DNA of 34,329 nt from positions 1 to 34,329 of the forward strand of contig DVJR01000169.1 of assembly GCA_018716575.1 (NCBI GenBank), given 5' to 3'. Source of the DNA: Candidatus Scatomonas merdavium (GTDB lineage: Bacteria; Bacillota; Clostridia; Lachnospirales; Lachnospiraceae). The translations under genes and the position numbers were made by a program. The notes beneath the pieces were generated by a model. The model made no database searches, had not been told where the DNA came from, and saw only the letters and a list, made by a program, of their open reading frames with translations. Below are positions 8,701-29,558 of this stretch, in pieces (the first letter of the stretch is position 1; the number at the start of each line of letters is the position of its first letter).

Positions 8701-9911
8701 CCTCCCGCAGCCAGAATAGCCACTGTTACCATGAACAGCACCTCCGTAGTCAGCAAAAGCTTCAGGAGCAGGCTGCAGCCTTCTCCCATGGTGGTCAGAC
8801 AGCCCACCATCCGTTTGTCCGACACAGGCTGGGTAAAGGCAGCCAGCAGCCGGTAGGTGAGGCCCGTCACCGCAAACTGAATCAGGGGAATCACCCCGCA
8901 CAGGAACAGGATCACCAGGGCCACCGCGCCCAGGCAGTTCCGTATCAGCACGGCAGAGCCGATAACCATCTCCGTCACGGAGTCAATAGCATTCCCCACT
9001 CCGGGAATAGCGCTGGCCGTCTTTCCGATGATCGTCCTCCGCAGGGAATCCAGGGCAGGCGAAATCAGATTTCTGGTAATCTGCATGCCGATCACCAGCC
9101 CCAGAGCCGTCTTCATCACCCAGGAAATGCAGGTTTTCAGAAGCTCCGCCATGCGGGACAGAAAATCCTCTCTGGAAAGCTGGTTCACCAGGGAAATCAG
9201 CACGTAGATCTGGATACCCGGCAGAATCAGATAGATCAGGAGCCTCTCCACCAGGGTGATGACAAACAGCACGATCTGGTAGAACATAGCTGCCGACGAA
9301 GCTCCGGTAGCCGTGGCCACAGCGATATAGTAAGCGGGTACCAGCACGTTCATAAAATTCAGGATGCCTTCCAGCGCCGCGGAAAGCTGGCTGCTCAGCG
9401 CCTGAAAATTCCGCAGCAGCAGCGCGAACACCAGGAGATAGATCATATAAAAGCCCATCTCACCCATCTGGCTGCTCTCAAAGAGAGAAGCAAAATTGGA
9501 CAGAAGCGCGGCCGCCAGCACCAGAATCAGAATCCGCATCCAGATCTCCCGCTGGCCGGAGAAGGCTTCCGTAACCAGCGACAGTACATTGCCCGCCATA
9601 TCTGTGCCTGTAAAAATATCCTCTCCGCTCATTAACCGCAAAACAGAATCAGAAACGGAAAAATCATCTTTTCCAAGCAGCTCGTCCACCGCCTGCTGTA
9701 TCTCTTCCATATCCATTTCAGACATCAGGGAATCGTCGATCTCCAGCGTCAGCTCGTCCTCTCCGGACGCCTCCTCGCCCGCGTATCCGGCTCCCGTCTT
9801 CACCGCCGCCCCCTCTTCCGCGCCTGCGGCTCCGTACGCCGGCAGCGCCGCCGCCGCTGTCAGAAAGAAAAAAAGCAGGATTCCCGGTCCCGCGCGTCTT
9901 TTTCTTTTCAT
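8697..9911 (-). CDS. spoIIIAE: stage III sporulation protein AE
   Basis: 404 aa multi-pass membrane protein with signal peptide; order within spoIIIA. Confidence 0.92.
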   Translation of the reverse strand: MKRKRRAGPGILLFFFLTAAAALPAYGAAGAEEGAAVKTGAGYAGEEASGEDELTLEIDDSLMSEMDMEEIQQAVDELLGKDDFSVSDSVLRLMSGEDIFTGTDMAGNVLSLVTEAFSGQREIWMRILILVLAAALLSNFASLFESSQMGEMGFYMIYLLVFALLLRNFQALSSQLSAALEGILNFMNVLVPAYYIAVATATGASSAAMFYQIVLFVITLVERLLIYLILPGIQIYVLISLVNQLSREDFLSRMAELLKTCISWVMKTALGLVIGMQITRNLISPALDSLRRTIIGKTASAIPGVGNAIDSVTEMVIGSAVLIRNCLGAVALVILFLCGVIPLIQFAVTGLTYRLLAAFTQPVSDKRMVGCLTTMGEGCSLLLKLLLTTEVLFMVTVAILAAGG

Positions 9912-10294
9912 GCCAGAAACTCCTGTATTGTCTCCATCAGCCCGGTCAGAATCGGCATACTGATAACGAGAATGGACAGCTTTGCAAAAATCTCAATCTG
10001 CCCCGCGATGGAGGAATATCCTGCGTCCCGGCAGATTCCGGCGGAAAACTGCCCTACATAAGTGATGCCGATCATCTTCAGCAGAGCGTTCAAATAGGTG
10101 GCGTCGATAGGAACGTAGGACTTCAGATTACCGATCATTTCCATCAGATACGTGAGCTTTCCGGTAGCCAGCACCAGGATGCAGATTCCGGTGGCCAGGC
10201 TCACATAAAGAGCGTACTCCGGCTTCGTCTCTTTGACAAAAATACAGATCATCAGGCCGGCAATGCCCAGCACGGCGATTTTTATCACATCCAT
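9908..10294 (-). CDS. spoIIIAD: stage III sporulation protein AD
   Basis: MDVIKIAVLGIAGLMICIFVKETKPEYALYVSLATGICILVLATGKL...; order within operon. Confidence 0.92.
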   Translation of the reverse strand: MDVIKIAVLGIAGLMICIFVKETKPEYALYVSLATGICILVLATGKLTYLMEMIGNLKSYVPIDATYLNALLKMIGITYVGQFSAGICRDAGYSSIAGQIEIFAKLSILVISMPILTGLMETIQEFLA

Positions 10295-10305
10295 GGACTG
10301 CTCCT

Positions 10306-10500
10306 TTACAGGGTAAAGAGATTTCGGATGGTTTCAAACAGATCGGATATATAAGGCAGCAACCAGAACAGTACCACAATCAGACCGGCCAGGCTGGTCA
10401 GGAACGCCTGCTCCTCCCGGCCGCTGTGCTTTAAGACCTGTCCCAGAACGGAAACCAGAATGCCCACAGCGCCGATTTTAAAAATAACCCCGATTTCCAA
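10306..10500 (-). CDS. spoIIIAC: stage III sporulation protein AC
   Basis: 64 aa, MEIGVIFKIGAVGILVSVLGQVLKHSGREEQAFLTSLAGLIVVLFWL. Confidence 0.92.
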   Translation of the reverse strand: MEIGVIFKIGAVGILVSVLGQVLKHSGREEQAFLTSLAGLIVVLFWLLPYISDLFETIRNLFTL

Positions 10501-10530
10501 CTGCGGCCACCTCCTTCCTCTCCGTTCTTT

Positions 10531-11049
10531 CTATATAAATAAAATAGCCAGAAAAAGACCGCCCATAATTCCCAGGCTCTGGCAGAGCTTTTTTCTTACA
10601 GGCAGTCCTTTTGTCAGTTCTTCTATTGTCATATCCAGCTCCCGGCCATAGGCTTCCAGATTGGCCAGCTGCATGGCCTTGTCCAGATAGCCCAGACTCC
10701 GGCCCAGCTCGCTGAACCGATCCCGGTCCTCCCGGGTCAGCTTCGTATCTTTTAAATGGCACTCCACATTTTCCGCAAACACCTCTCCGAAGGAGCCCCC
10801 GCCATACCGGTTCAGATCCTCGGACAGCTCCCGCAGAAACTCCCGGAAAGGCTCTTCCACCTTTCCGGCAATGTTCCACAGGGCATCCGGCAGCGGCGTC
10901 CGCGCGCAGGAAATTTCCCCGTGCAGGAACATCTCAATTCGCTTCAGAGTCTTAAGCTGCGAAAGCCGCCGGCTTAAACCCATGCTTTTCAGAAAACCCA
11001 GGCTGACACAGGAACCTGTCATGATACACAGCGCGATGATACGCAGCAA
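10531..11049 (-). CDS. spoIIIAB: stage III sporulation protein AB
   Basis: MLRIIALCIMTGSCVSLGFLKSMGLSRRLSQLKTLKRIEMFLHGEISCARTPLPDAL... Confidence 0.92.
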   Translation of the reverse strand: MLRIIALCIMTGSCVSLGFLKSMGLSRRLSQLKTLKRIEMFLHGEISCARTPLPDALWNIAGKVEEPFREFLRELSEDLNRYGGGSFGEVFAENVECHLKDTKLTREDRDRFSELGRSLGYLDKAMQLANLEAYGRELDMTIEELTKGLPVRKKLCQSLGIMGGLFLAILFI

Positions 11050-12177: not shown

Positions 12178-12873
12178 TCAGTCCACTCCCCGGATCTCCA
12201 CCTGTCCGATACTCCGCAGCAAAAGCTCCCGGAACCGCTCCAGCTGTTCTCGGGAATAGCCGCTGAACACCGGCTGCAGCACGAACTCTGATTCTCTGTA
12301 GTTCTGCAGGCAGTACTTCCTGCACCCGGCCAGCCATTTTCCGATCCTTTCAAACTCTGCCCGCCCGTGCAGCTCCCGGGCCACCGTGGTTCTGAACTCA
12401 TAGTCCACCGCTCCGCACATGAGGAACTCCACAGATTCCTGAATCCGCAGCACATCCAGATCAGCCAGGCCCGCTGTCTCGCCATAACGGTCGGGAGAAT
12501 TCTTGATATCCATGGCCACATAATCCACAAGGCCAGCCTCTGCCAGGCTCTTTAACACCTCCGGCCGGTAACCGTTGGTATCCAGCTTAATCCGGTATCC
12601 CATTTCCCGGACTTTTCCAAGAAAATCCGGAAGCTCCGACTCCAGTGTAGGCTCACCGCCTGTTATACATACCCCGTCCAGAAGCCCCTTTCTTTTCTCC
12701 AGATGAGAGAATACCGTCTCCTCATCGATCAGCGGCTCACGCTCCGGATGCAGTACCAGATTGCCGTTCTGACAAAAAGGACACCGGAAATTGCAGTGTC
12801 CCAGAAAAACCGTACAGGCCACAACCCCCGGATAATCCAGAAGGGTCAGGGTCTGAAAACCGTATATGTTCAT
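12178..12873 (-). CDS. anaerobic ribonucleoside-triphosphate reductase activating protein-like radical SAM enzyme
   Basis: MNIYGFQTLTLLDYPGVVACTVFLGHCNFRCPFCQNG (CX3CX2C), CITGGEPTL, KLDTNG. Confidence 0.87.
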   Translation of the reverse strand: MNIYGFQTLTLLDYPGVVACTVFLGHCNFRCPFCQNGNLVLHPEREPLIDEETVFSHLEKRKGLLDGVCITGGEPTLESELPDFLGKVREMGYRIKLDTNGYRPEVLKSLAEAGLVDYVAMDIKNSPDRYGETAGLADLDVLRIQESVEFLMCGAVDYEFRTTVARELHGRAEFERIGKWLAGCRKYCLQNYRESEFVLQPVFSGYSREQLERFRELLLRSIGQVEIRGVD

Positions 12874-13581: not shown

Positions 13582-14421
13582 TTACTGTCTTTCGGGGATT
13601 CCCAGAATCTCCCGGATGCCCCAGGCCACGCCGTCCTCCTGGTTGGACCTTGTCCGGAAAGCCGCCGCCCGCAGGCACCCCTCGCTGGCGTTTGCCACGG
13701 CGATCCCCCACCGCACAGCCTTCAGCATGTCCATATCGTTATCCGCATCTCCAAAAGCCGCCGTTTCCTCCGGAGAAATACCCAGCCTTTTCAGAAGAAA
13801 CAGAAGGCCCGATGCCTTTCCCGCTTCCGGGCTGGACAGCTCGATCCTGTTCCGGACAGAGGAGGTGATATAGAGCCTTTCTCCACAGCCTGCCAGCGCT
13901 TCCCGAAGGCCACAGCGTTTCTCATCCTCCGGAATGATCAGATCCACGCCGTCCAGGCGGTCGCTGTTCTCCAGGATAAACTGCCGGATATCCCCGACCT
14001 TCCGGCGGGTGGTCTGAATATATTCCACCGCATAGGGCGCAGCCCCGAACCGGACGGGATCCTCCACATAGTCTGCCTGTCCGTAGGGAATGCCGTCCAC
14101 GAAGGCCTCACAGGTGACGCCTCCGCCGCCGGTCAGCGCAAGCACCGCCTCCACCGCCCTCCGCTCCAGGGTCACCCGGCGCAGGCAGGCCCGGTCCTGC
14201 AGCCGGTAAACCGCAGCGCCGTTGGAGGTCACCGCATACTCAATACAATCCATGGCCTTCACCGCATCCGGAATGGAATCCACCGTCCGGCCGCTGGCCA
14301 CAACTATGCAGACGCCTCCGGCGGCGGCGTCCTCCAGAGCTTCTCTGTTGGCTTCGCTGACCGTTTTCGCATCCGTCAGCGTGGTTCCATCCAGATCCAG
14401 AGCGATACAACGCACTTTCAT
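13582..14421 (-). CDS. Cof-type HAD-IIB hydrolase
   Basis: MKVRCIALDLDGTTLTDAKTVSEANREAL...VVASGR...AFGDADNDMDML motifs; start moved to 14421. Confidence 0.9.
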   Translation of the reverse strand: MKVRCIALDLDGTTLTDAKTVSEANREALEDAAAGGVCIVVASGRTVDSIPDAVKAMDCIEYAVTSNGAAVYRLQDRACLRRVTLERRAVEAVLALTGGGGVTCEAFVDGIPYGQADYVEDPVRFGAAPYAVEYIQTTRRKVGDIRQFILENSDRLDGVDLIIPEDEKRCGLREALAGCGERLYITSSVRNRIELSSPEAGKASGLLFLLKRLGISPEETAAFGDADNDMDMLKAVRWGIAVANASEGCLRAAAFRTRSNQEDGVAWGIREILGIPERQ

Positions 14422-14519
14422 CCTTTTCTTCCTCTCCTGCATCCTGAAGCACCCATGTCCGCAGCCCTTTCTTACGGGCTGCAGACGATTTCTCTCAGTT
14501 TCTCTTTTGCCCGGCTGTC

Positions 14520-14867
14520 TCACAGATACTCCGCGCCGTGGTCTTTCAGCCATTTCCGGCGTTCCCGGTAATCCGGCAGAACCTTCTCCACCTCCGCCCA
14601 GAAGCGGGGAGAATGATTCATCTCTTTTCTGTGCGCCAGCTCATGAACTACCACGTAGTCCAGGATGGCCGGCGGCATCAGCACCAGCTTCCAGTGAAAA
14701 TTCAGATTTCCCAGACTGCTGCAGCTTCCCCAGCGGGTTTTCGTATTTTTGATGGCAATCCGGCCAAAGGTCACGCCCATAATTTTACTGTAATAGGCGG
14801 CCTGCCTGGTGCAGACCAGCCGTGCCTGCTCCCGGAACATCTTCTCCTGTCTCTCCGTATACTTCAT
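14520..14867 (-). CDS. YgjP-like (DUF45/M48-type) metal-dependent hydrolase; ORF extends to 14885
   Basis: TRWGSCSSLGNLNFHWKLVLMPPAILDYVVVHELAHRKEMNHSPRFW (HELAH motif). Confidence 0.87.
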   Translation of the reverse strand: MKYTERQEKMFREQARLVCTRQAAYYSKIMGVTFGRIAIKNTKTRWGSCSSLGNLNFHWKLVLMPPAILDYVVVHELAHRKEMNHSPRFWAEVEKVLPDYRERRKWLKDHGAEYL

Positions 14868-14920
14868 ATTCCCATCTCCCTGCACACGCTTTCCGGGAAA
14901 ACAGCTGACATCCTCCGCCG

Positions 14921-16000
14921 CTACATCAGAAAATCGTGCAGCATCTCCATATTTTCGGGGCAGTATTCGATTTCCTTGGAATACAGTTTGGCCGTAAAGA
15001 TCCGGTCTGCTTCCGTATAGTCTCCCCGTTCCAGCCAGATCTCCGTATCCAGAAGCTGAATCACCAGAAGACTGGCAGCCGCAAACCGCACCGGCGGCAG
15101 CACGCAGCCGTCGAACAGAGCTTCCATGAAATAACGATACAGAAAATACACCGCCAGATGCTCATACTCGCACTCCCGCTCCCGGTATTCCGCCAGAAAA
15201 TCCCTCCTGGCTTCCAGAAGCTCCGGAAGGCGTTTCAGCAGCTTTTCCATCCGTCCGCCCCAGGTTCCGTCCAGAGACTCCAGGACACGGTACTGTTCCA
15301 GCAGCTTCCGTACCTCTGCCTCTTCAAAATATTTTTCACAGCACTGCCTCCGCAGCCACCGAATCGATCCTTCCCCGGCCAGCGCTTCGATGCCTTCCGC
15401 ATCCTCAGCCTGCAAATGCGCGTCCAGTTCCTCTGCCCAGGCCAGCAGCGCACGGATCCTCTGATCCATGGAACAATTCCTGGACTGAGCAATAGCAAAG
15501 GCTGTCTCCCGGGCTTTCAGCAATGGCTCCAGCAGGAAATCCTCTTCCAGCTCCCCGGGACTGTCATCTTCCCTGTCTTCCTCTTCATCATACAGCATTT
15601 CAAAGCGTAAAGGCTCTTTCCTTCTGAAGAGCAAACGGCAGACCTCTTCACAGCAAAGGCCCAGCCCCGCTTCCGTATAATCTCCAAACCACTGGTAAAA
15701 CCGGGGATGCTCCCGGCAGATGTCACAGAGCCACTCCTCTCCAAGCGCAATTATGATCTCGCAGAGGTTGTCCCCGTTCAAAAACGGACAGCGCCGTTCC
15801 TCCGTCAGCCGGAAACAGCTTTCTTCTTCGTCATTTTCCATCTCCGCCCTGAGGCGCTCTCCAATTTTTCCGCCAGCTGACCGGTATTTTTCTGCCGTTT
15901 CCCCGTCAATCTCAATTTCCCAGCCCGCACAGCAGGTATCCCCGCAGGCGCCGCCGATACACGAAAAATCCCTGTAAAAGTCAGGCCGCCGAAGCCTCAT
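14921..16000 (-). CDS. FliB-like (flagellin) lysine N-methylase family protein
   Basis: MRLRRPDFYRDFSCIGGACGDTCCAGWEIEIDGET...CPFLNGDNLCEIIIALGEEWLCDICREHPRF; Cys-cluster pattern of the FliB family; ATGA overlap with the PPTase stop. Confidence 0.8.
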   Translation of the reverse strand: MRLRRPDFYRDFSCIGGACGDTCCAGWEIEIDGETAEKYRSAGGKIGERLRAEMENDEEESCFRLTEERRCPFLNGDNLCEIIIALGEEWLCDICREHPRFYQWFGDYTEAGLGLCCEEVCRLLFRRKEPLRFEMLYDEEEDREDDSPGELEEDFLLEPLLKARETAFAIAQSRNCSMDQRIRALLAWAEELDAHLQAEDAEGIEALAGEGSIRWLRRQCCEKYFEEAEVRKLLEQYRVLESLDGTWGGRMEKLLKRLPELLEARRDFLAEYRERECEYEHLAVYFLYRYFMEALFDGCVLPPVRFAAASLLVIQLLDTEIWLERGDYTEADRIFTAKLYSKEIEYCPENMEMLHDFLM

Positions 16001-16791
16001 ATCTGTCTCTCCTCTCCCGCGGATCCCGCGCCGAAGCGCAAGGGCCCGGACATCCACTTCAGTTCCGGAAATACCGGCGCTGCGCAGCATACGCACAGCG
16101 TGTATTCGCCCTCCGCCCGCACAGACGCTTCCGCAAACCAGACGCCGCCGGCCGTCCATCTCCGGAATGTCAGGGGCTGTCCATCAGCCGGGGCGCGCCG
16201 GGCTTTTTCTTCCTCTGGTTTCCCCGATGCCTCCCGCTGCCAGTCCGAATTCTCCCGGCTGACATCTGATAGCTCCGGCAGGCAGCTTTCCGGTTTCCAT
16301 TTCTCAGGAATCACGCAAAACTCCCCGAAAGAATCGTCAATTCCCTGTCCGGTGTATTTGACATACGCCTCCTTGGCCGCCCAGATACGAAAAAAGCGCC
16401 GGAAGGAATCCCCCTCCAGCACGTAGGCCGCCTCTCGTTTATGAAAAAAGCGGACGGCCATTTTCCTGTAACGCGTTTCTGCCTGCCTGCGGCTCTCCCC
16501 TGCCCGGATCACATGCTCCTGCAGATCAATCCCCAGCTCTCCCTCCGCCAGAGCGCAGAACCAGAAAGGACCGCTGTGGGTGATGGACAGGCCGATACCC
16601 GGTATATCCCGGAAATACGGCTTTCCTCTTCCGCTACGAATAATCGTCCCATCACTTTCTGCCGCCAGAAGTCCCCATTCCGGACTTTCCGCAGTCCGCA
16701 TCCAGTCTTTCACAGCTTCCTTAAGACGGCTCTCCGACGTTTTACCATCCTTCAGGTCGAAACAGTAAATTCCTACGCTCCGGTGCTCCAT
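15997..16791 (-). CDS. Sfp-type 4'-phosphopantetheinyl transferase
   Basis: MEHRSVGIYCFDLKDG...GKPYFRDIPGIGLSITHSGPFWFCALAEGELGIDLQEH...FFRIWAAKEAYVKYTGQGI (GIDL and WAAKEAYVK motifs). Confidence 0.9.
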   Translation of the reverse strand: MEHRSVGIYCFDLKDGKTSESRLKEAVKDWMRTAESPEWGLLAAESDGTIIRSGRGKPYFRDIPGIGLSITHSGPFWFCALAEGELGIDLQEHVIRAGESRRQAETRYRKMAVRFFHKREAAYVLEGDSFRRFFRIWAAKEAYVKYTGQGIDDSFGEFCVIPEKWKPESCLPELSDVSRENSDWQREASGKPEEEKARRAPADGQPLTFRRWTAGGVWFAEASVRAEGEYTLCVCCAAPVFPELKWMSGPLRFGAGSAGEERQI

Positions 16792-16792
16792 C

Positions 16793-17035
16793 TCATCCCA
16801 CCGTAATCCCTTTCTTTTCCATATATGTAATGACATCCTGCACCTGATGAAGCTGCCAGACATCCCTTGTGGGAATTTCCGTATCAAACTCCTCCTCAAA
16901 GGCGCATACGATGTTCATAATATCAAAAGAGCTCAATCCCAGATCCTGCACGAAATCCGTATCGTAAGTCAGGTTTTTTCTTCCCGTCACCTCATATACA
17001 ATTTTCTGTATCAGCTCCAAGAACGGATCTTTCAT
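16793..17035 (-). CDS. free-standing acyl/peptidyl carrier protein
   Basis: 80 aa MKDPFLELIQKIVYEVTGRKNLTYDTDFVQDLGLSSFDIMNIVCAFEEEFDTEIP; phosphopantetheine Ser in LGLSSFD. Confidence 0.92.
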   Translation of the reverse strand: MKDPFLELIQKIVYEVTGRKNLTYDTDFVQDLGLSSFDIMNIVCAFEEEFDTEIPTRDVWQLHQVQDVITYMEKKGITVG

Positions 17036-17050
17036 TTTATACTCCCTCTT

Positions 17051-18715
17051 TTATACCGTATGCCTCTTTATCTTCTGTAATGACGTTTTTTCAAATCTCT
17101 GCTCGCGGATATTCACCATCTGGATCTGCTGATAGAGCGGAAGGCCGTCATTAATCTGATCCACTGCCTGCTGCAGCTCCTCCAGAATCTCATAGGACGT
17201 CATCATCCCGGCCTGCTCCGGATCCGGATAAATACTGGCAGCCAGCTTCACATCATCCGCAGCTTTCCCGCTCTCCGCTCCGTAAACCATTACATCTTTC
17301 ACCAGCGGAATCTGGCGCAGCCGCATCTCCAGTCCTTCCGGAGAAATCTTTTTTCCATTTTTGAATACTACCAGATTCTTTCTCCGTCCGGTGATATACA
17401 GAAAACCGTCCTTATCCAGTTTTCCCAAATCACCGGTATGGAACCATCCGTCCCTTACTGCGGCAGCTGACTCATCCGGCATCCCGTAATAACCGCTCAT
17501 AAGCATGCTTCCCCGGACAAGTATCTCATCATCTTCTATTTTCACCTGGCAGCTTGGCAGAATCCGGCCTACAGAACCCTGCCTGTTCCATTCGGCTCCA
17601 TTTACAGAAACCAGCGGCCCACATTCCGTAATACCGTACCCCTCCAGTACAGTCAGACCCAGATGCCGGAATTCTTCCGCACATTTTTCATTCATATGCG
17701 CTCCCCCGAAAAGGATCACGCGCAGGGTGCCGAAATGCTTCCGCCGCAGCTCTTCCAAAGCGCGACAGGGCTTTTTCATACCAAATCTTCCCCGGAACTT
17801 CATTTTTTTCAGCAGCCCTCGCAGCTTCTCTGCTTCTCCATGGCGCTCCGCCTCCAGCCAGATCTGTGAATGCAACGCCTCGCCCATCAATGGCACTGCC
17901 AGCATAGAATATGCCCCTGACAGGCGCATATCCCGGATAGCAGTTTTCAGATTCCCATTAAAGCACAGCTCCGCACCCCTGGCAAACGTAGCCAGAACAG
18001 CACAGGTCATTCCGTATGCATGACAGAATGGAAGCGCAGAAAAAGCCTTTATCCCTCCGTCCACATAGCAGTTGCTTTCGCTGGCATTGTTCAGAAGTGC
18101 TCTCTGGCTCAACATCACAGGTTTACTCTCACCGGTCGTTCCTGAGGTAAATACTATCGCAGCCGGCGCTTCCGGATCCAGTTCCACCGGAAATCCGGTC
18201 TTCCCGCCGCACTGTTCCAGAAGCCTGCTGCCTTCCCGGCAGAGACGCCCGACAGCCATCTCCTCCTGTTCCGTCTGGCTGTTCAGCGAAAAAATCCCCA
18301 TCATCTCCGGTCTTTTTTCCAACACCGGCCCGCAGACCCCGGAACAGCCTGTCGAAGCAAAGACAGCAGAAACGTCTGCCTGCAGGAGCATGGCCCGAAT
18401 TACTTCGTCCGGCTGCTCCGGATCAATACAGACCGCCGCAGCGCCGCAGAGGGTACACGCCAGATAGGTTACCAGCCAGTAATAACAGTTCTCTCCCACA
18501 AGCGCTATATGTTTTCCCGCCAGCTTCCGGGCACACAGGCTTTCCCGCAAACCTTCCACATCGCGAATCAGTTCGTCATAAGTCCGGCTTTGCTCCTCCT
18601 TTTTCCGGGTAAACCAGGACAGCGCCCTTCTCCCCCGGTAATGGCTTCCGATCTCCGTTATAAATTCTCCGAAATCTCTGTAATACCGCACAGTATTCTG
18701 TGAGAATTTTTTCAC
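17051..18715 (-). CDS. AMP-binding fatty acyl-ACP/acyl-CoA ligase-like enzyme
   Basis: IVFTSGTTGESKPVMLSQRAL, YGITECGP, DGWFHTGDLGKLDKDGFLYITGRRKNLVVFKNGKKISPE. Confidence 0.9.
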   Translation of the reverse strand: MKKFSQNTVRYYRDFGEFITEIGSHYRGRRALSWFTRKKEEQSRTYDELIRDVEGLRESLCARKLAGKHIALVGENCYYWLVTYLACTLCGAAAVCIDPEQPDEVIRAMLLQADVSAVFASTGCSGVCGPVLEKRPEMMGIFSLNSQTEQEEMAVGRLCREGSRLLEQCGGKTGFPVELDPEAPAAIVFTSGTTGESKPVMLSQRALLNNASESNCYVDGGIKAFSALPFCHAYGMTCAVLATFARGAELCFNGNLKTAIRDMRLSGAYSMLAVPLMGEALHSQIWLEAERHGEAEKLRGLLKKMKFRGRFGMKKPCRALEELRRKHFGTLRVILFGGAHMNEKCAEEFRHLGLTVLEGYGITECGPLVSVNGAEWNRQGSVGRILPSCQVKIEDDEILVRGSMLMSGYYGMPDESAAAVRDGWFHTGDLGKLDKDGFLYITGRRKNLVVFKNGKKISPEGLEMRLRQIPLVKDVMVYGAESGKAADDVKLAASIYPDPEQAGMMTSYEILEELQQAVDQINDGLPLYQQIQMVNIREQRFEKTSLQKIKRHTV

Positions 18716-19758
18716 TCCTTCATTCCTCCCTGGCAGTTATAAAGTTCCCTGAGTTCCCGGCCTTTTTCCGCGTCACAAAACAGCATCACAAACATTTCCG
18801 CAAGTACCGGATCGAACTGTCTTCCGCGTTCTTCCAGAAGTATCTGCATCGCCTGCTCACAGGTTCTTCCAGGCCTGTACTGACGATTGGAAACGATGGC
18901 ATCGAAGGCATCTGCTATGGCAATAATCCTGGCTCCATCAGGTATCTCATTCCCTGGCAAACCGTCCGGGTATCCACGCCCGTCATATCGTTCGTGATGT
19001 CCTCTTACAATGGGAAGAATGTCCTGCATCCTACTGATCCCGGACAAAATCTTTTCTCCCGTTTCCGGATGCTTTTTTATCTCCGCATACTCTTCTTCCG
19101 TCAGGCGGTCAGGCTTCAGAAGGATTCTGTCCGGCACACCGATTTTTCCAATATCATGGAACAGCCCTGCCAGCCGAAGCCGCTTTATCCCTTCATCCGG
19201 CAGTCCCGCAGCCGCACCCAGAGCTGCTGCGAGCTGAGCCACCCTGTCCGAATGACCCTTTGTCTCCTCGTCTCTGGCCTCTACAATATAGCGCAGCGTG
19301 GTTACTGTCTCCAGGTATCCCGTTTCCATGGTTTTCTGATACTCCCGGATTGTCCGCATCTGCCGGATAGACTTGACACAGGATTCCACCAGAAGCTCAA
19401 GCTGGTCAAACCGGTCACTTTTTTCATAGTATCCCTGAATATCCAGTTCTCGGATAGATTTGACAGGCGGCGCCATGCTCTTGTGCCCGGTCAGAAGAAT
19501 AATAAAAACATCTGTATTAAATTTTCTGATTTCCTCTACTACCTGATCGCCACAGATCGGGCTCATAAGAAAATCCAGAAGCAGAATATCGTATTCGCTC
19601 TCCCTGACCCGTTCAATAGCTCTGCAGGGATTATTTTCCACATCCACCCGATACCCGTTTCTCTGGAAATATGCCTGAATGGCGGAAGTCATCAACGGAT
19701 CATCATCCACCGTTAAAATTTTGAACTGGCTCTCTGCCACCGCTTTATGTTTTCGCAT
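18712..19758 (-). CDS. response regulator: receiver + HD-GYP domain
   Basis: ILTVDDDPLM...ILLLDFLMSP receiver; GLFHDIGKIGVPD and HHERYDGRGYPDGLPG HD-GYP signatures. Confidence 0.92.
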   Translation of the reverse strand: MRKHKAVAESQFKILTVDDDPLMTSAIQAYFQRNGYRVDVENNPCRAIERVRESEYDILLLDFLMSPICGDQVVEEIRKFNTDVFIILLTGHKSMAPPVKSIRELDIQGYYEKSDRFDQLELLVESCVKSIRQMRTIREYQKTMETGYLETVTTLRYIVEARDEETKGHSDRVAQLAAALGAAAGLPDEGIKRLRLAGLFHDIGKIGVPDRILLKPDRLTEEEYAEIKKHPETGEKILSGISRMQDILPIVRGHHERYDGRGYPDGLPGNEIPDGARIIAIADAFDAIVSNRQYRPGRTCEQAMQILLEERGRQFDPVLAEMFVMLFCDAEKGRELRELYNCQGGMKE

Positions 19759-21637
19759 CTGATGTTCCTCCCTTTGTGCCTTCCATATCTTTCAGCATAA
19801 CATATTCCATCGGTATAGAAATCCCAAAAATGGAACCGCCGTCCGGATTGTCTTCCATCCACATCTTTCCTCCGAATTTTCCCCGGATTACCGTATTACT
19901 GATATACAGTCCCAGCCCGGTTCCCATGGCCCCTTTACTGGTTACCATGGCTCTAAACAGCTTTTCCTTCACTTTTTCGCTGACTCCCGTACCTGTATCG
20001 GCTACAGAAATCTTCAGATTCTCCGGATCACACTCTACCCTTAGTGTGATCTCACCGCCACCTACCTGCTGCTGGGCGTAAACTGCATTCGACAGCAGAT
20101 TTGTCAACACCTGAACCAGATTGTTGACGTCACCCTTCAGCGCAATATCTCCCGGCTTATCGCATATGACATTCAGGCGGCACTGACCCGCCATCAGTTC
20201 ATGACGCATCAGCATGACACAGCGTTTTACTGTCTCGTCTATGGTAAACACAGAATCTTCTACGGTGACTGCCCCCGCCGCCTGCCCTTTGATCGCCGTG
20301 ATAATATCCGACATATAGGCTGTAGCCTCCCGACCTTTCTGAAACCAATCTCTTATTTCGTTGTAGATTTCCCGATAGTCCGCTTCCGTAACGTCCGGAT
20401 CTCCCAGGCTTTCTTCACATTCGTCCACCAGGGCTTCCATAGCTGAAATGCTGCCGGAAATTCCCATAATGGGGGTTTTCAGGTTATGCGCCAGCCCGCC
20501 TATCATCTGCCCCAAAAACGCCAGCCGTTCCTGTTCCATCATCCGTTCCCTGCTGTCCTGAAGCTGCTGCATACTCTCCCTGATCTGGGTAATATCCTTG
20601 AAAATAACTACAAATCCACTTATTTTTTCATGTACGGACAGCGGCGACACTTCGGTTACATAATAACCTCTTCGGACAAAACTGCCTTTTGTCATGGTTA
20701 CCGCCTGCTCATAGGAAATGACCGTATTTGCCTTTTTACATTCCTCCACAGCAGTAATCATATTGTAAATAGCCGTCTTGCCGGACACATCCTCATCTTT
20801 CACACAGTCCCTCAGATACTTGTTTCCCGAAATTCCGTATTCCGAACCAAACACCCGCTCAAACTGCCGGTTGTAACTGATCACCAGGCCCTGATCGCTC
20901 AAGACCAGATAACAGTCCGAAATCCAGTCCAGAACGTGCTGGGTAGCCATAGGACGGATATCCAGCAGATGCATCTGGTAAATAGCCAGGCCATTCAGTA
21001 TCATTGGTACGATAAAGCTCATAGGCGTTGCGGCAATATCCAGATTCATACCGGAAAATGTAGACATCATGCTCACAATCAGCGGACAGATCCCGCTGCC
21101 GGCCAGCAGCAGGCACTGTTTAAAATAAAGCTGGCTTCTGTTTCGCAGCGCAAACCGCAGCGGTATAATGATAGTCAGAAGCAGACAGAAATAATTGTAC
21201 AGCCCTGAAACCATAACATAAGGGCCGAATTCAATATCACTGCGTATTACAGAAAACACCTGGTACTGCAGATGATGCAGCGGGTTTGTCCACGTTACGG
21301 CAATGGTGACCAGCGGCATCACAAAAAGCAGCCACAGCCGGCGCGGCATATGCTCCAGGCTGCGTACGAACGCCAGCACAATACACAGAAAGATAACCGG
21401 AGCAAATGAGCCTCCCGGCGTAGTCATACAGTCCAGTATAAAAGCCTCTGTCCCGTTGGGTGACCGCAGAAAGCGCATCAGGATAATCGGAATAACCCAT
21501 GTGGCATAACACACAGTCAGTGCCAGGTACAGCTTGTGAAGCAGATACAGCTTCGGCGCACGGATGCACCAGATAATAAATACCAATATGACAATCAGTG
21601 CAATGCTGAAAATAAGAATCGAACCATCCGTTACCAT
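19745..21637 (-). CDS. histidine kinase with N-terminal 7TM region and PAS domain
   Basis: Multiple N-terminal TM segments; PAS (HVLDWISDCYLVLSDQGLVISYNRQFERVFG...); H-box GGLAHNLKTPIMGISG; HATPase VADTGTGVSEKVKEKLF...GTGLGLYIS. Confidence 0.9.
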   Translation of the reverse strand: MVTDGSILIFSIALIVILVFIIWCIRAPKLYLLHKLYLALTVCYATWVIPIILMRFLRSPNGTEAFILDCMTTPGGSFAPVIFLCIVLAFVRSLEHMPRRLWLLFVMPLVTIAVTWTNPLHHLQYQVFSVIRSDIEFGPYVMVSGLYNYFCLLLTIIIPLRFALRNRSQLYFKQCLLLAGSGICPLIVSMMSTFSGMNLDIAATPMSFIVPMILNGLAIYQMHLLDIRPMATQHVLDWISDCYLVLSDQGLVISYNRQFERVFGSEYGISGNKYLRDCVKDEDVSGKTAIYNMITAVEECKKANTVISYEQAVTMTKGSFVRRGYYVTEVSPLSVHEKISGFVVIFKDITQIRESMQQLQDSRERMMEQERLAFLGQMIGGLAHNLKTPIMGISGSISAMEALVDECEESLGDPDVTEADYREIYNEIRDWFQKGREATAYMSDIITAIKGQAAGAVTVEDSVFTIDETVKRCVMLMRHELMAGQCRLNVICDKPGDIALKGDVNNLVQVLTNLLSNAVYAQQQVGGGEITLRVECDPENLKISVADTGTGVSEKVKEKLFRAMVTSKGAMGTGLGLYISNTVIRGKFGGKMWMEDNPDGGSIFGISIPMEYVMLKDMEGTKGGTSDAKT

Positions 21638-21640
21638 GGA

Positions 21641-24600
21641 CTACTCCTCTTCTGCCGGCCAGGTTTCCTGCATCGTAAAGCTCTCCAGCAGCTCACCCGG
21701 CGATGGAATGTCAAACCGGAATCCTGCCCGGGCCAGGCTGTCCTTTGTCTGTTCTCCGGACACCTGAATCACCGGCGGCTTCAGGCGGATATGATACCAA
21801 TAATCAATCAGGACGGATACCTGCTCCCGGGCCGGACCCACAGCCGTCCTGGACAGCAGCTCCGTAAATTCCCCGTCCGAAACGATACGGATTCCCGCCT
21901 GCAGCTCCTCCGCCACCTGTCCGGTAGTCGGCGGATCCGGATGGATAATATGGAACACCGTACCCGGACCGTCTTTCAGGGCAAGAACGGCTTCCGCCGC
22001 ATAATCCACAGGGGTCAGATCCACAGAGGTTTCCGCGATGGTACGCGGAACAGCGCCTACCCGATAAAAAGCCCGCATCAGCAGATAAAACGCATTTGTA
22101 TCCGGATTTTTCTGAAATACTCCGTCAGAGGCCCGGCCTACCAGCCGGCCCAGCCGGAAAATTTTCGTCTCCATCCCGCTTTCCCGTGCTTCCAGCACAA
22201 GCCCCTCTGCCAGGTATTTGCTCTTTACATATATGTTGTCTTCCCAGATCTGCCCGATATCATAGTCATTTTCCGTAAATACAGCCCCCGGCCTGCCATC
22301 CTTAAGCTGCTCACCGCTGACGCTGCAGGTAGACATATGATACAGCCTGGCTCCGCTCCTCCGGGCAAGCTCCAGGATACAGCGCGTTCCCTCCACATTG
22401 GTTCGGAGAAAGGCTTCTTCGTCCGCCGCGTAATGGCGCACATCCGCCGCCGCATGATAAATCTCTCCCACATTTCCCGCCAGGCGCGCGTAGTCCTGTT
22501 CCTCCAGTCCAAGGCGCTCCTTCGTCAGATCTCCATCTATAACGGTCAGCCTTTTCCGGCTCCGCATGGCAAAGCCACTGCCGAAATACCATGTCAGACA
22601 CTCCAGAAGCCTGCGTTCGCCTCCACGCACCAGGCAGATTATGCCGCTCTCTCCTTTATCCAGCAGAGCCTTCAGCAGATGGACACCGAAAAATCCGGTC
22701 GCTCCCGTAAGCATGATACCCTTTTTCCGGCCCTGCCGTTTTTCGGCCTCAGGCTCTTCCCATATGGGTTCTTCCGGCGGTACCAGGACATGCTGCCGCT
22801 TTTCCGCACAGGCTCCTGCCGCCTCTGTACGATATCCCGCATCTGCCGCAATTTTTCCAGACGCTGTCTCCCGGATCTCTCCTGCAGCGGCGGCATCTGC
22901 AAGCTTCTCTTCCGTCTCATCCGTTTCTGACAGGTTCAGCCCCAGCAGCTCCGCCTGACGGCGCGCCTCCGGATATTCATAAAACTGTGACAGAGACATC
23001 TCCAGCCCGTGGTTGAAATACAGGCTCAGCACACTCAATGCCTCCAGAGAAGTGCCTCCCTGTTCAAAAAACGACTGCTCCGGATCCAGCTCCTGCTTCG
23101 TCAGCACCTGTCCCCAGATATCCAGTACAAATCGAACGCCGTCTGCAGAAGCCGCTTTCTCCTGTTTTTTCGGAGCAGGGGACGGCTCAGCCCTCCTGAT
23201 TTCTGTATCCCGCACCGGTGCAGCGTCCTGTTCTGCCGCAGTTTCCGCCTGCGCCGCAGCCTTCTCCGGTACAGCCTTCACCGGTTCTGCAGCAGAGACA
23301 CGATGGGCTTCATCCTCCTTAAGCGCATGGCGGATACCCTCCGTAGCCATGGCTGTCAGCGCCCGGAGATCAATCTTGCTGCTGGCTGTCAGCGGCATAT
23401 TCTCAATAGGAAGTACCCTGGATGGCACCATATATACAGGAAGTACTTTGCGAATTCTCTCCATCAGGCAGCTCTGGCAGTTTTCCACCCGGCTGTCCGG
23501 CTGATAGAAGGAACACAGTTCCATGGATCCGTCTTCCTTGCGGATAGCCACAGTAGCCGCCTGCTTTGCACAGCCGGATTCCAGGATCGCACCGGTAATT
23601 TCATCCAGCTCCACCCTCTGGCCGTTCAGCTTGACCTGGGAATCCCTGCGCCCGAGGAAATCATAAGACCCGTCCAGGCGCAGCCTTCCCATATCCCCGC
23701 TTTTATACATTCTCTCTCCCGGAACAAACGGGTCAGGCAAAAAAGCCTGCTCCGTCAGATCCGGTCTGGAAATATAGCCTCTGGCCAGACATTCACCGGC
23801 CATATATAATTCTCCGCAGCCCGTCGGCATTACAGGGCGCATCTTTTCATCCAGGACATAAATACGGCCATTATACAGCGGCCTTCCAATCGTAATGTGG
23901 TCGCCTGGCTTTACATCGATCATCGTCATGTAAACCGTAGCTTCTGTAGGGCCGTACATATTCACGCTGACAGCGTCTGTCGCTTTATGCAGCTTGTCCA
24001 GAAGCTGCGGCGTCAGCACCTCGCCTCCCAGCAGCACCAGCTTCAGGGAAGCGGCAGCGCGGCAGAAGGCTTCATTTCCCAGACACATCTGCAATCTCGC
24101 CGGCGTCACCTGGAAAATCTCAGCTCCGCTCTCTTCTATAATAGCCGCCAGCTTCCAGGGCAGCATCATCTCTTCTTCGTCCGTCAGCACCACTGTTTTG
24201 CCCATAGCCAGCGGGAACAGGCTTTCTCCGATAAAGCTGTCGAACACCACGTTGGTCGTGCACAGGATCGGGCCCGCCGCCCGCGAGAGCAGCTCCCGTA
24301 TGCTGACAAACAGGCTGGACACGGCGCGGTGGCGCAGCATTACCCCTTTTGGCTTTCCTGTAGAGCCTGATGTAAACATTACATTAACCAGATCCTCATC
24401 TTTTACAGCGGCATCCTCGAAGCCGTCTTCCAGACGCTCTGCCGCTTCAAACACCCTGCAGGGCAGCCCTTCCGGCAGACGCGCCGCCGTCTTCCTGTCA
24501 CAGAGCACATACTCTGCTCCTGCAGTCTCCAGCATATAGGCAAGCCGTTCCTTCGGGAAGGAAGGCAGAAGCGGCACATAGGCGCAGCCATTTTTCAAAA

Positions 24601-27600
24601 TAGCGATCATAGCCGCAATCAGATCCGGCGTCCTTCCGAATCCCAGCCCCACGCACTGGCCCGGCTGTACTCCCGCTTCCCGCAGAAGCGCCGCCAGCCC
24701 GCAGGCACGGCGTTCCAGCATATCCCTTGTCATAACCTGGCCGTGGAATACGATAGCCGGCGCATCCGGCCCGGCCTTTACCTTCTGCTCAATAAACCGG
24801 TGAATGGGCAGATTGACAAAAGGCGTAGCCGCATAGCGCGGCGCCTCCACATACGTTTCATAATCAGCCGGGCACAGCGGTGATATTTCATCCAGCGTCA
24901 GCGCTCTCCCCGACAGGATCTCCCGCAGAATCTGACGCAGACAGCGTCCGTAAAAACGAATGGTATTTTCTTCAAACAGGCTGGACGCGCTTGCCATCTG
25001 GAAGCTGTAGCAGCTTCCCTGCCGCGCCGTCTCCACTGTCATATCCATTTTCACCGTTCCTGTGATGACCGGCAGAAATTCCATCGGTTTTCCATCCAGA
25101 ACAAAAGCCGCCGTATCCACAGGACTCTGCGAAAACATAACCTGATACAAGGGATTCTGGGCGCTCCGCGGCAGCTTCAGCAGTGCCAGAAGCTCTTCCA
25201 GAGAAATTTCCTGATGATCCAGCAGCCCCGTAACCTCGCTGCGCACCTCCTGGAGGTACGCCTCCGTCCGCCTGCCGCCCTCCGGTCGGAGACGCAGAGG
25301 CAGCGTATTGATAAACGGCCCGCAGATCGCGCCTGTTCCCGGATGAAGCCTTCCCGCTACCGGCGTTCCGATCAGGAAATCTTCCCGTCCGGAAAGCTTC
25401 GACACCAGAATTCCATAGACCCCCAGAAACAGCATAAAGCTGGTAATGCCGTGGTCACGGCAGTATTCATCACAGGCCGCGCTCTCTTTTTCTGTCAACG
25501 ACCAGCGGTATTCACTGCCTTTAAAATCAAAGGTATGCGGGCGTGGGAAATCAGAGGGCAGCGTCAGAAGTTCCGGCAGGTTTTCCAGATGCCTGCACCA
25601 ATAATCCTTCTCTCTCTCCCTTCCTCGTTCCGGCTCCTCCTCCAGGTATACGGAATAATCCGTATAAGAAAGAGGCACCTGCAGCTCCAGGCCGCAATAT
25701 GCTTCGTTCAGCCGCTTCAGTACCAGCGGAGTGCTCATACCGTCGCCTATGATGTGATGGCTGTCTATAAAAAGAATTCTGTTCCCGTCCGGTTCCTGCC
25801 AGATAGCTGCCCGCAGCAGCGGAGCGCAGCCCAGATCAAAGGGCCGCAGAAATTTTCCGGACACTTCCGCAAAATCCGCCCCCTCCAGCCACTCCAGGGC
25901 AAAAGGCACCGTCTCTGCCACACGGGCGCTGATGCGTCCCTTTTCCTGCACAAAAGCCGTACGGAACACCTCGTCCGCACGAATCAGAGCGCGGAAGGCC
26001 TCCTGAAGCTTCGCCGCGTCCGCCTCCTTCGGCAGACGGAATGCTCCGGGCATATTATAGGCGATTCCCGTAGGATCCAGCCACGACTGGACATAGATCC
26101 CCTGCTGCATTGGAGAAAGCGGATAGCTTTCCCGCCGCTCTGCCTTCCGGATCATCCGAAGCGGCTCAGCCCCGCTGTCCTGGCTTCCCTCCCCTCCGTC
26201 TTTCTGCAGATGGCGCGCCAGGCGCACAGCCGTACGGCATGCATACAGATCGGCAACCCGCACAGAGCAGCCGAAGGCTGCCTCCAGCCCGGCAATAGCT
26301 TCCATAGCATTCAGAGAGTTCCCGCCAGACAGAAAATAATCACTGTTTCCGTCCAGATCTTCCCTTCCCAGCACAGAACGGAAAATATCCAGCACCTTTC
26401 CTGCGGATGCCGTGATATGCCCTGCCGAACCCGTGCCTGCCTGCTTCCGCAGTACAGGTTCAGGCAGGCGCCGTTCATCAATCTTTCCGCCCGCAGTCAC
26501 CGGCAGTTCATCCAGCCGCATGATGCAGGATGGTATCATGTAATAGGGCAGATAAGTGGCTGCAAAGGAAAGAAGCTCTGTCTCCTCCAGCACAGTATCA
26601 GAGCAGTAATAGGCAGTCAGCACCGGCTGGCTCTCCACCTGGCAGACACGCGCAGCAGCTGCACGGACACCGGGATATTCGGCAATACAGGCCGCCACTT
26701 CACTGGGCTCGATCCGCAGCCCCCGCAGCTTCACCTGATCATCCAGCCTTCCGGCCAGCACAATCTCCCCGTCGTCTGTCCAGCATGCAGAGTCTCCGGT
26801 ATCATACATTTTCTCTTTATCTTCGAAAGGATTTTCCACAAAGCTCTTTTCTGTCAGCTCCGGCGCATTGCGGTAGCCGCGCCCGACACAGAGCCCGCCC
26901 ACGTACAGTCGTCCGAACACACCGGTGGGCAGCGGATTCAGCCATTTATCCAGCACATAAAGGCGGCAGTTGTCCATTGGACGCCCGGCTGTAATCTGCT
27001 TGGCATGGGACAACTCTTTTAAGCTTACGCCCACCGTTGTCTCAGAGGGTCCGTATTGATTATAGAGCTTCGCTCCCGTAATATTTTTCAGCTTCTTCAG
27101 CAGGCTGGCCGGAAACGCCTCTCCGCCGCAGAGTATCCCTTCCATATGACGGACCGCTCCGCAGAACTCCGGCTCCTTCAGAAAAGCCTCCAGGCGGGAC
27201 GGGGTCAGCGAACAGAATCCCACCGCGTAGCCGCGGATCAGCGCCGCCAGCCTTTTCGGGGATTCCTGTTCTTCTCCATCCGCAATCACAATTGTTTTTC
27301 CATTTAACAGAGGGACGATACTCTCCAGCATAAACGCATCAAAGCCCACGCTACAGATAGAAAGCACCGCTCCCTTCCCGTAGATATTCTCCATGGCCTG
27401 AGCCAGGTTCAGAAGGTTCTTCTGCGTAATCTCCACGCCCTTTGGAGTCCCTGTGCTTCCCGATGTATACACCACATAAGCCAGGCTGTCCGGCTTCACC
27501 GGAACCTGGGGCACCTGCCCGGTATTCTGTTCCACCTCTTCTGCAAATACTACCGGAATATCCGGCTCTCCCAGTCCGCTGCGCTCCAGGATCTCACGGG

Positions 27601-29296
27601 CCGTTACCAGAAGGCCTGCGCCGCTCTGCGTCAGAATTCTCCGGATTCTGCCCGCAGGAAGATCCGGGGACAAAAGCATCCAGGCACATCCGGCACGCAG
27701 CACGCCGGCCATAGTCTCCAGCAGTTCAAATCCCCTGGGCAGCAGCACCGCCACCAGCGCCTGATCCCCTCCGGAAGCAGACAGCACCGCCCCTGAAATA
27801 TCAAACGCCCGCATCAGCAGGGCCTGGTACGTCAGTCTTTCCCCCCGGAAAATAGCGGCAACCCGCCTCGGATATTCATCCGAAGAGGTTTCCAGCGCAT
27901 CAAAGACCGACCGCTCCTCCAGATAGCGGCCTGTCCGGTTAAAGGTATATAAGACACGTTCCCTTTCATCTGTCGTCAGCACGGAAAGCTGGCGTATGGG
28001 CTTCTCCGGATTTGCCAGAGCCTCCAGCAGAATGTTGCAGATAGTATGATGCAGCCGTTCAATCTCTTCCCTGGCAAAAAACTGGGTCAGATAATCATAA
28101 TCTATGGAATAGCATTTGCTGTCTGCCATGTTTGTCACATGGATGCAGAGCTGCTCCGCCTGATAGCCGCTGTAATGCCATCGTCCGGAAATCAGCACGG
28201 ACGCATCCCGGCTCTCTACAGCCTGGCTGTTCTGGTAGGACAGGGCAATATTGAACAGACGCCCCTCCCCTTTGTTCCTGCTCTGATAAATTTTCTCGAT
28301 ATGGGAATACGGAAACCTCTGGTGCTTGAGCAGATCGAACCACGCTCCTGTCAGTTCCCGGTTAAACTCATTCCAGCTCCAGCTGTCGTCAATCCGGTTA
28401 AAAAACGGCAGAGTTGTCACGAACATGCCCGTAGTCCGCTTAAAAACATAGTTGGTGCGGTTCATAATCGGTACGCCGATCGTAAAGCGGTCTGCGCCCC
28501 CGATCCGTTTAAAATAAATGGCCAGAGCCATATAAAAGACAGCAAAAGGAGCCACGCGGTTTTCCGTACAGAACCGGTACACCGCATGGTTGAGCACCTG
28601 AGGCAGGTCAAAAGAAACCCGGCTGCCGAGAGGGCTCACAACTGCGCTGCTGACAGCCTTCAGCACCGACGGCTCACCGGATTCTTCCAGGATCTGCTCC
28701 CAGTATTTTCTGTCCTTCTCATAAGCCCTGGAACTGAGATAGTTTTGTTCTTCTTTTATATGTAATTCATAGCTGGGAGATTTCTCAAGCCCTGCAGGCT
28801 TCCCGTCCAGCAGGTTCAGATACGTCTGTGCGATCCGGTTGCAGACCATCAGCTGCGCCCACCCGTCAGAAATGATGTGGTGCATCTTCACCAGCACGCC
28901 TCCGGAATTTTCTCCTGCCCGGAACAGGATAAACCGATACAGCGGTCCGTCAAACACAGGAATCGGCTCTCTGGTCATCGCTGCCTCCCAGCTCTCGATC
29001 CCTTCTCTGCTGGTATGGGACAGATCATAGACCGGAAATTCCTCTTTCACAAACGGTGCATGATACTGCACCGGATCTCCGCCGGCACTCTGTTCGATCC
29101 GCGCCCGCAGAGAATCGTCCGCCTCCAGAACCATCTGTATGCTTTTCTGAAGCAGTACAAAATCCACACGCCCTTCTACCTGAATCGTAGCGCTCAGATT
29201 GTTAACAGAAGTTCCTTTCAGAGAACATTCCAGATTCCAGATATTTTTCTGACTTAAAGACAGCGGAAAACGCTGTCCGTAATCTTTCGTTTCCAT
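21641..29296 (-). CDS. two-module NRPS, C-A-PCP-C-A-PCP-R (reductive release); ORF track start is 29377 (TTG)
   Basis: C1 MHHIISDG; A1 VYTSGSTGTPKG...YDTGD (around 27930-26450); PCP1 FLSGGNSLNA; C2 SHHIIGDG; A2 MFTSGSTGKPKG...YKSGD (around 24800-23370); PCP2 FEQGGTSLEA; R domain MLTGATGFFGVHLL with YVKSK (YxxxK) (around 22720-21650). Confidence 0.95.
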   Translation of the reverse strand: METKDYGQRFPLSLSQKNIWNLECSLKGTSVNNLSATIQVEGRVDFVLLQKSIQMVLEADDSLRARIEQSAGGDPVQYHAPFVKEEFPVYDLSHTSREGIESWEAAMTREPIPVFDGPLYRFILFRAGENSGGVLVKMHHIISDGWAQLMVCNRIAQTYLNLLDGKPAGLEKSPSYELHIKEEQNYLSSRAYEKDRKYWEQILEESGEPSVLKAVSSAVVSPLGSRVSFDLPQVLNHAVYRFCTENRVAPFAVFYMALAIYFKRIGGADRFTIGVPIMNRTNYVFKRTTGMFVTTLPFFNRIDDSWSWNEFNRELTGAWFDLLKHQRFPYSHIEKIYQSRNKGEGRLFNIALSYQNSQAVESRDASVLISGRWHYSGYQAEQLCIHVTNMADSKCYSIDYDYLTQFFAREEIERLHHTICNILLEALANPEKPIRQLSVLTTDERERVLYTFNRTGRYLEERSVFDALETSSDEYPRRVAAIFRGERLTYQALLMRAFDISGAVLSASGGDQALVAVLLPRGFELLETMAGVLRAGCAWMLLSPDLPAGRIRRILTQSGAGLLVTAREILERSGLGEPDIPVVFAEEVEQNTGQVPQVPVKPDSLAYVVYTSGSTGTPKGVEITQKNLLNLAQAMENIYGKGAVLSICSVGFDAFMLESIVPLLNGKTIVIADGEEQESPKRLAALIRGYAVGFCSLTPSRLEAFLKEPEFCGAVRHMEGILCGGEAFPASLLKKLKNITGAKLYNQYGPSETTVGVSLKELSHAKQITAGRPMDNCRLYVLDKWLNPLPTGVFGRLYVGGLCVGRGYRNAPELTEKSFVENPFEDKEKMYDTGDSACWTDDGEIVLAGRLDDQVKLRGLRIEPSEVAACIAEYPGVRAAAARVCQVESQPVLTAYYCSDTVLEETELLSFAATYLPYYMIPSCIMRLDELPVTAGGKIDERRLPEPVLRKQAGTGSAGHITASAGKVLDIFRSVLGREDLDGNSDYFLSGGNSLNAMEAIAGLEAAFGCSVRVADLYACRTAVRLARHLQKDGGEGSQDSGAEPLRMIRKAERRESYPLSPMQQGIYVQSWLDPTGIAYNMPGAFRLPKEADAAKLQEAFRALIRADEVFRTAFVQEKGRISARVAETVPFALEWLEGADFAEVSGKFLRPFDLGCAPLLRAAIWQEPDGNRILFIDSHHIIGDGMSTPLVLKRLNEAYCGLELQVPLSYTDYSVYLEEEPERGREREKDYWCRHLENLPELLTLPSDFPRPHTFDFKGSEYRWSLTEKESAACDEYCRDHGITSFMLFLGVYGILVSKLSGREDFLIGTPVAGRLHPGTGAICGPFINTLPLRLRPEGGRRTEAYLQEVRSEVTGLLDHQEISLEELLALLKLPRSAQNPLYQVMFSQSPVDTAAFVLDGKPMEFLPVITGTVKMDMTVETARQGSCYSFQMASASSLFEENTIRFYGRCLRQILREILSGRALTLDEISPLCPADYETYVEAPRYAATPFVNLPIHRFIEQKVKAGPDAPAIVFHGQVMTRDMLERRACGLAALLREAGVQPGQCVGLGFGRTPDLIAAMIAILKNGCAYVPLLPSFPKERLAYMLETAGAEYVLCDRKTAARLPEGLPCRVFEAAERLEDGFEDAAVKDEDLVNVMFTSGSTGKPKGVMLRHRAVSSLFVSIRELLSRAAGPILCTTNVVFDSFIGESLFPLAMGKTVVLTDEEEMMLPWKLAAIIEESGAEIFQVTPARLQMCLGNEAFCRAAASLKLVLLGGEVLTPQLLDKLHKATDAVSVNMYGPTEATVYMTMIDVKPGDHITIGRPLYNGRIYVLDEKMRPVMPTGCGELYMAGECLARGYISRPDLTEQAFLPDPFVPGERMYKSGDMGRLRLDGSYDFLGRRDSQVKLNGQRVELDEITGAILESGCAKQAATVAIRKEDGSMELCSFYQPDSRVENCQSCLMERIRKVLPVYMVPSRVLPIENMPLTASSKIDLRALTAMATEGIRHALKEDEAHRVSAAEPVKAVPEKAAAQAETAAEQDAAPVRDTEIRRAEPSPAPKKQEKAASADGVRFVLDIWGQVLTKQELDPEQSFFEQGGTSLEALSVLSLYFNHGLEMSLSQFYEYPEARRQAELLGLNLSETDETEEKLADAAAAGEIRETASGKIAADAGYRTEAAGACAEKRQHVLVPPEEPIWEEPEAEKRQGRKKGIMLTGATGFFGVHLLKALLDKGESGIICLVRGGERRLLECLTWYFGSGFAMRSRKRLTVIDGDLTKERLGLEEQDYARLAGNVGEIYHAAADVRHYAADEEAFLRTNVEGTRCILELARRSGARLYHMSTCSVSGEQLKDGRPGAVFTENDYDIGQIWEDNIYVKSKYLAEGLVLEARESGMETKIFRLGRLVGRASDGVFQKNPDTNAFYLLMRAFYRVGAVPRTIAETSVDLTPVDYAAEAVLALKDGPGTVFHIIHPDPPTTGQVAEELQAGIRIVSDGEFTELLSRTAVGPAREQVSVLIDYWYHIRLKPPVIQVSGEQTKDSLARAGFRFDIPSPGELLESFTMQETWPAEEE

Positions 29297-29348
29297 ATTG
29301 CCCGTCAAACCCCTATGTTTTCCGTCAGATACAGTATACTCATCTATA

Positions 29349-29377
29349 TTTATACCCTTTTTTTTATCCAAAATCAA
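29349..29377 (-). promoter_or_regulatory. SigA-type promoter of the NRPS operon
   Basis: Minus strand TTGATT (29372-29377), 17 nt including A8, TATAAA (29349-29354). Confidence 0.6.
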
Positions 29378-29529: not shown

Positions 29530-29558
29530 TTGACAGCCGTATTTGAATCCTTTATAAT
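29530..29558 (+). promoter_or_regulatory. consensus SigA promoter for the ABC transporter
   Basis: TTGACA (29530-29535), 17 nt, TATAAT (29553-29558): perfect consensus. Confidence 0.75.

Follow-up and report, generated by a model that had tools for sequence, protein, structure and literature searches.

A FliB-family gene beside the phosphopantetheinyl transferase gene of a Lachnospiraceae genus without flagellin

Introduction

What does a relative of the flagellin methylase FliB modify when its gene lies at the end of a run of NRPS genes? The question is raised by a stretch of 34,329 nucleotides from Candidatus Scatomonas merdavium (Lachnospiraceae), analysed here as a whole and referred to as the window. 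A gene encoding a FliB-family protein of 359 aa (14921..16000, minus strand) overlaps in this window the gene encoding a 264-aa Sfp-type 4'-phosphopantetheinyl transferase, or PPTase (15997..16791, minus strand). A first-pass annotation of the same sequence described both genes and their ATGA overlap, interpreted the overlap as translational coupling and proposed the NRPS or a carrier protein as a possible substrate of the methylase. The two genes, their coordinates and the overlap are confirmed here, the FliB-family protein by the model NF038110 and the PPTase by PF01648. The reading that we favour, and regard as reasonably probable, is that the gene encodes a FliB-type [4Fe-4S]/SAM-dependent protein-lysine N-methylase that would act on a non-flagellin protein, and that its position next to a housekeeping-like PPTase is a feature of the genus.

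A complete FliB-family protein

By its sequence, the window gene is a member of the FliB family. Its product matches NF038110 (Lys_methyl_FliB) with 264.2 bits for a cut-off of 85, over model positions 1-372 of 373. A complete iron-sulfur motif CX4CX3CC is found near the N-terminus at residues 14-24 (C14, C19, C23 and C24), together with the further invariant cysteines C71, C80, C95 and C117. All eight cysteines are invariant in the collected FliB-like proteins (85/85) and stand among the invariant columns of the FliB alignment A1. In Salmonella FliB, the CX4CX3CC motif binds a [4Fe-4S] cluster and eight cysteines are highly conserved (PMC8598068). The window protein resembles the Salmonella enterica enzyme in its full-length NF038110 match, its motif and its eight conserved cysteines, the comparison being made with the published motif and cysteine count rather than with the Salmonella sequence itself, so that the agreement is one of number (PMC8598068). 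Viral contigs contained no relative when searched with the single protein and one, located at a contig edge, when searched with the FliB alignment. Phage records gave five FliB matches, mostly in unannotated faecal records.

The strongest doubt is whether such divergent FliB homologues are lysine methylases at all. Enterobacterial FliB proteins align with the N-terminal cysteine region only (about 30% over residues 1-140), and the C-terminal part is divergent. No relative of the protein was found in the PDB and the single-sequence structure prediction (pLDDT 39) left the SAM site without structural support. The protein could have kept the FliB fold and cluster but serve a different function as a relative of the CxxCxxCC family (PF03692), binding an iron-sulfur cluster or a metal. 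The confinement of the enterobacterial alignment to the cysteine region is in favour of this alternative, as is the fact that the FliB family is not tied to flagellin (see below). It is opposed by the match over the whole NF038110 model and the retention of all eight cysteines, and no PF03692 match to the protein was found. Altogether, it appears rather unlikely.

Conservation of the PPTase-FliB pair

The first-pass annotation suggested that the conservation of the pairing be examined. The pair does hold within the genus, with one FliB decayed, but it does not extend beyond. It is retained in two other genomes, G001 and G002, and the gene order at the relatives' loci L049 and L050 is PPTase-FliB-(YgjP)-HAD-activase. 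In the third, G003, the PPTase is intact and FliB is decayed (locus L052), which indicates that FliB is dispensable. Three of the genus's four genomes thus have an intact FliB that retains every cysteine. The remnant in G003, a small genome, is a roughly full-length pseudogene at about 13600-15000 of L052, adjoining the PPTase gene. Outside the genus, a PPTase was found within the fetched stretch at only two of the 80 FliB loci: 66 bases downstream of FliB in L129 and several kb off in L099. Because the pairing is limited to the genus and is not tied to an NRPS cluster, the window enzyme probably represents an ordinary relative of FliB.

In the window, FliB is followed by a YgjP-like metallohydrolase-domain gene (14520..14885, minus strand, PF01863), which also adjoins FliB in L050, a Cof-type HAD hydrolase gene (13582..14553, minus strand, PF08282), an alpha/beta hydrolase gene, a radical-SAM activase-like gene of the NrdG-activase type (12178..12873, minus strand, PF04055) and then SpoIIIA genes. 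The activase-like gene is conserved in the genus (69-73% identity in L049, L050 and L052). The HAD gene also comes after FliB in L049 and L050. It does so as well in the sister lineage G054 (L111), where no PPTase adjoins FliB, so the link with the HAD gene extends further than the link with the PPTase. Within the genus, FliB and the PPTase are neighbours, along with the YgjP-like, HAD and activase-like genes. Two further arrangements of these families were encountered. In G011, a PPTase and a HAD hydrolase, members of the two families found on either side of FliB in the window, share one open frame (L185, 944-2584). In G149 (L186, 2701-3986), a PPTase gene is close to a YgjP gene, and the stretch that was fetched has no FliB between the two.

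The junction between the two genes was read directly in the sequence (15997..16000, minus strand): the FliB start codon, ATG at 16000-15998, shares the four bases ATGA with the TGA stop codon of the PPTase. A Shine-Dalgarno-like sequence, GGAGAGGAG, lies directly upstream of this ATG. As FliB has such a sequence of its own, translational coupling with the PPTase is possible and not required. Other four-base overlaps occur in the same run, at the response regulator/ligase and abhydrolase/NrdG-activase-like junctions, and also at SpoIIIAD/AE. The overlap is not conserved in the relatives, where PPTase and FliB are separated by about 10 bases in L049 and by 222 in L050. A significance of the ATGA overlap as a coupling device was rejected on both grounds. 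The four-base overlap proposed as translational coupling is real but ordinary. The junctions from the NRPS through FliB range from -14 to +15 bases. By this spacing, it is plausible that FliB and the NRPS are co-transcribed in this genome, as a consequence of where FliB is located.

FliB and flagella in the genus and the family

Neither flagellin (PF00669) nor FlhA (PF00771) was detected in the genus (0/4 genomes for each, controls as expected), the sample consisting of three genomes that are 96-98% complete and of the window's own genome, which is 79.7% complete. The earlier remark that no flagellar gene is visible in the window stands, since the scan of window genes brought up none, and for flagellin and FlhA the four genomes extend it to the genus. 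As both are absent, flagellin cannot be the substrate of FliB in this genus. The protein would be an active lysine methylase with some other abundant or surface protein as its target. Enterobacterial fliB genes sit in flagellin methylation islands, in the fliDCAZ region (PMC4875605). The window gene, unlike that of Salmonella, belongs to a genus without flagellin or FlhA and is surrounded by PPTase, YgjP, HAD and activase-like genes. A gene of Clostridium strain CFSA-TJ-E, likewise from the Clostridia and of the same family by annotation, lies inside a flagellar glycosylation island (PMC13317340), whereas the window gene lies outside any such island.

At the level of the family, FliB and flagellin were compared in 250 Lachnospiraceae genomes. 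FliB was above cut-off in 117 and flagellin was present in 124; both were found in 54 genomes, FliB only in 63, flagellin only in 70 and neither in 63. The odds ratio of the association is 0.77 (p = 0.31), the genomes being counted as independent although they are related. The FliB-positive, flagellin-negative set includes the single-contig genomes G033, G178 and G216. At the 80 FliB loci outside the genus, flagellated hosts included, no flagellin gene was found within about 7 kb of FliB, some contigs ending before 7 kb; in the control for this search, the same queries recovered ten of ten flagellin loci. No recurrent neighbour of FliB was obvious over the family. In a FliB tree of 85 rows, flagellated and non-flagellated hosts are intermixed and no fewer than 19 switches between hosts with and without flagellin are required, compared with a mean of 26.7 and a minimum of 21 in 200 shuffles. 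Host flagellin status does therefore track FliB relatedness to some extent. Additionally, G001 and G002 each encode a second, distant FliB paralogue of about 31% identity (L048, 8753-9907; L051, around 9580-10659). These paralogues belong to another FliB clade and have no PPTase adjoining.

The window gene could also be a relic of a flagellated ancestor, a former flagellin methylase now left without its substrate and on its way out. The decayed copy of G003 and the presence of flagellin in half of the family would fit such a history. The intact copies in the rest of the genus, with every cysteine in place, do not, nor does the finding that FliB-positive genomes without flagellin are as common as those with it, single-contig genomes included. 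FliB also lies away from the flagellin genes even in flagellated genomes, and this alternative is considered very unlikely.

Beyond the favoured reading of a methylase with a non-flagellin target in this genus, a wider and more tentative proposal, possible rather than probable, is that the FliB-type iron-sulfur methylases of Lachnospiraceae are mainly non-flagellar and have a widespread substrate of their own, the methylation of flagellin in Salmonella being a special case. The coupling itself is ordinary; of modest interest is the widespread non-flagellar FliB family. It bears on annotation: NF038110 is curated as an equivalog and genome pipelines label such proteins 'flagellin lysine-N-methylase', a name that is wrong for at least one non-flagellated genus and unsupported in about half of the FliB-bearing family genomes sampled. 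If these proteins are active methylases, they would represent a common protein modification of gut bacteria, and non-motile species would offer a clean background for finding its target.

The PPTase and the NRPS cassette

The PPTase matches PF01648 with 46.6 bits for a cut-off of 25. In all four genomes of the genus (G000-G003, loci L133-L136), PF01648 has a single match, which is the PPTase beside FliB. TIGR00516 (AcpS) did not match the window PPTase and was not detected in the genomes of the genus. The PPTase beside FliB is, on this sequence evidence, probably the housekeeping PPTase of the genus. With one PPTase and no AcpS per genome, the genus is predicted to resemble systems in which a single Sfp-type PPTase acts on primary and secondary carrier proteins; the enzyme, apparently the sole one, would serve both the fatty-acid ACP and the NRPS. 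AcpS was above cut-off in only eight of the sampled genomes of the family, so that the use of Sfp-type enzymes in primary metabolism may be widespread in Lachnospiraceae.

Upstream of the PPTase, the cassette continues on the minus strand with an acyl carrier protein (16793..17035, PF00550), which is conserved in the cassettes, an acyl-AMP ligase (17051..18715, PF00501), a response regulator with an HD (HD-GYP-like) output domain (18712..19758, PF00072 and PF13487), a histidine kinase with a 7TM sensor (19745..21637, PF16927 and PF02518) and the NRPS itself (21641..29377). The latter has the architecture C-A-T-C-A-T-reductase, ending in a thioester reductase (two PF00668, two PF00501, two PF00550 and one PF07993). 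Ruminopeptins are dipeptide aldehydes produced from gut NRPS clusters (PMC12327764). In its architecture, by which the two were compared, the window NRPS resembles the gut clusters for dipeptide aldehydes, of which ruminopeptin is the published example (PMC12327764). An aldehyde release is expected from this arrangement. The gene content of the cassette (15997-29377, minus strand) suggests a pathway to an N-acyl dipeptide aldehyde, equipped with a two-component system of its own. The base composition does not mark the cassette as foreign.

A search with the ligase recovered eleven related cassettes, with ligases of 47-56% identity, in Lachnospiraceae, Oscillospiraceae and other Clostridia, including Eisenbergiella porci. 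The order NRPS-histidine kinase-response regulator-ligase-ACP-PPTase was found again as far as the contigs reach, the PPTase being the last gene in the ten whose contigs extend to it. FliB stood beside none of these ten PPTase-bearing cassettes, for which the downstream coverage ranges from less than 1 kb to about 9 kb, and FliB is not part of the window-type cassette elsewhere. Reciprocally, the window NRPS was absent from the other three genomes of the genus, G001 and G002 having distant NRPS-like matches only. L049 and L050 contain the PPTase-FliB pair without the cassette and have a PHP-helicase gene directly upstream of the PPTase instead. The cassette ACP was found at none of the FliB loci examined outside the genus. 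The cassette is directly upstream of the pair in this genome only, which would put FliB distally on the cassette transcript.

Methylation of the NRPS or of its carrier protein was rejected as the leading idea on these grounds: FliB is missing from the cassettes elsewhere, and in the genus the pair occurs where the cassette does not. The first-pass proposal of such a substrate finds no support in the ten cassettes without FliB or in the three genomes without the cassette; the annotation had itself counted it against this idea if NRPS operons were not consistently linked to the pair, and no such linkage was found. The other half of its argument, methylation confined to flagellin, cannot apply in a genus that has none. 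The least probable explanation is accordingly that FliB serves the NRPS system as a tailoring or regulatory methylase, its translation being coupled to that of the PPTase to this end and its target being a lysine in the peptide product, the NRPS or the ACP. Its place in the same apparent operon, its four-base overlap with the PPTase and the end of the cassette directly at the PPTase are outweighed by the distribution of both partners and by the absence of the overlap in the relatives. A tempting link between FliB and NRPS biosynthesis is thereby removed.

Two histories of the window PPTase can be envisaged. In a tree, the genus PPTases group with those of the cassettes, apart from four other PPTases of the family (100/98), and a clade uniting the window PPTase with those of the genus is neither upheld nor rejected (p-AU 0.348). 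The cassette may have arrived beside a resident PPTase, or the relatives may have lost the cassette and retained its PPTase, the same p-AU applying to this choice.

On the other side of the NRPS gene, a MacB/FtsX-type ABC transporter is encoded divergently (29706-33272, plus strand) and is possibly an exporter of the NRPS product. A perfect sigma-70 consensus (12/12, with a 17-base spacer) is located upstream of this transporter at 29530-29558 of the plus strand.
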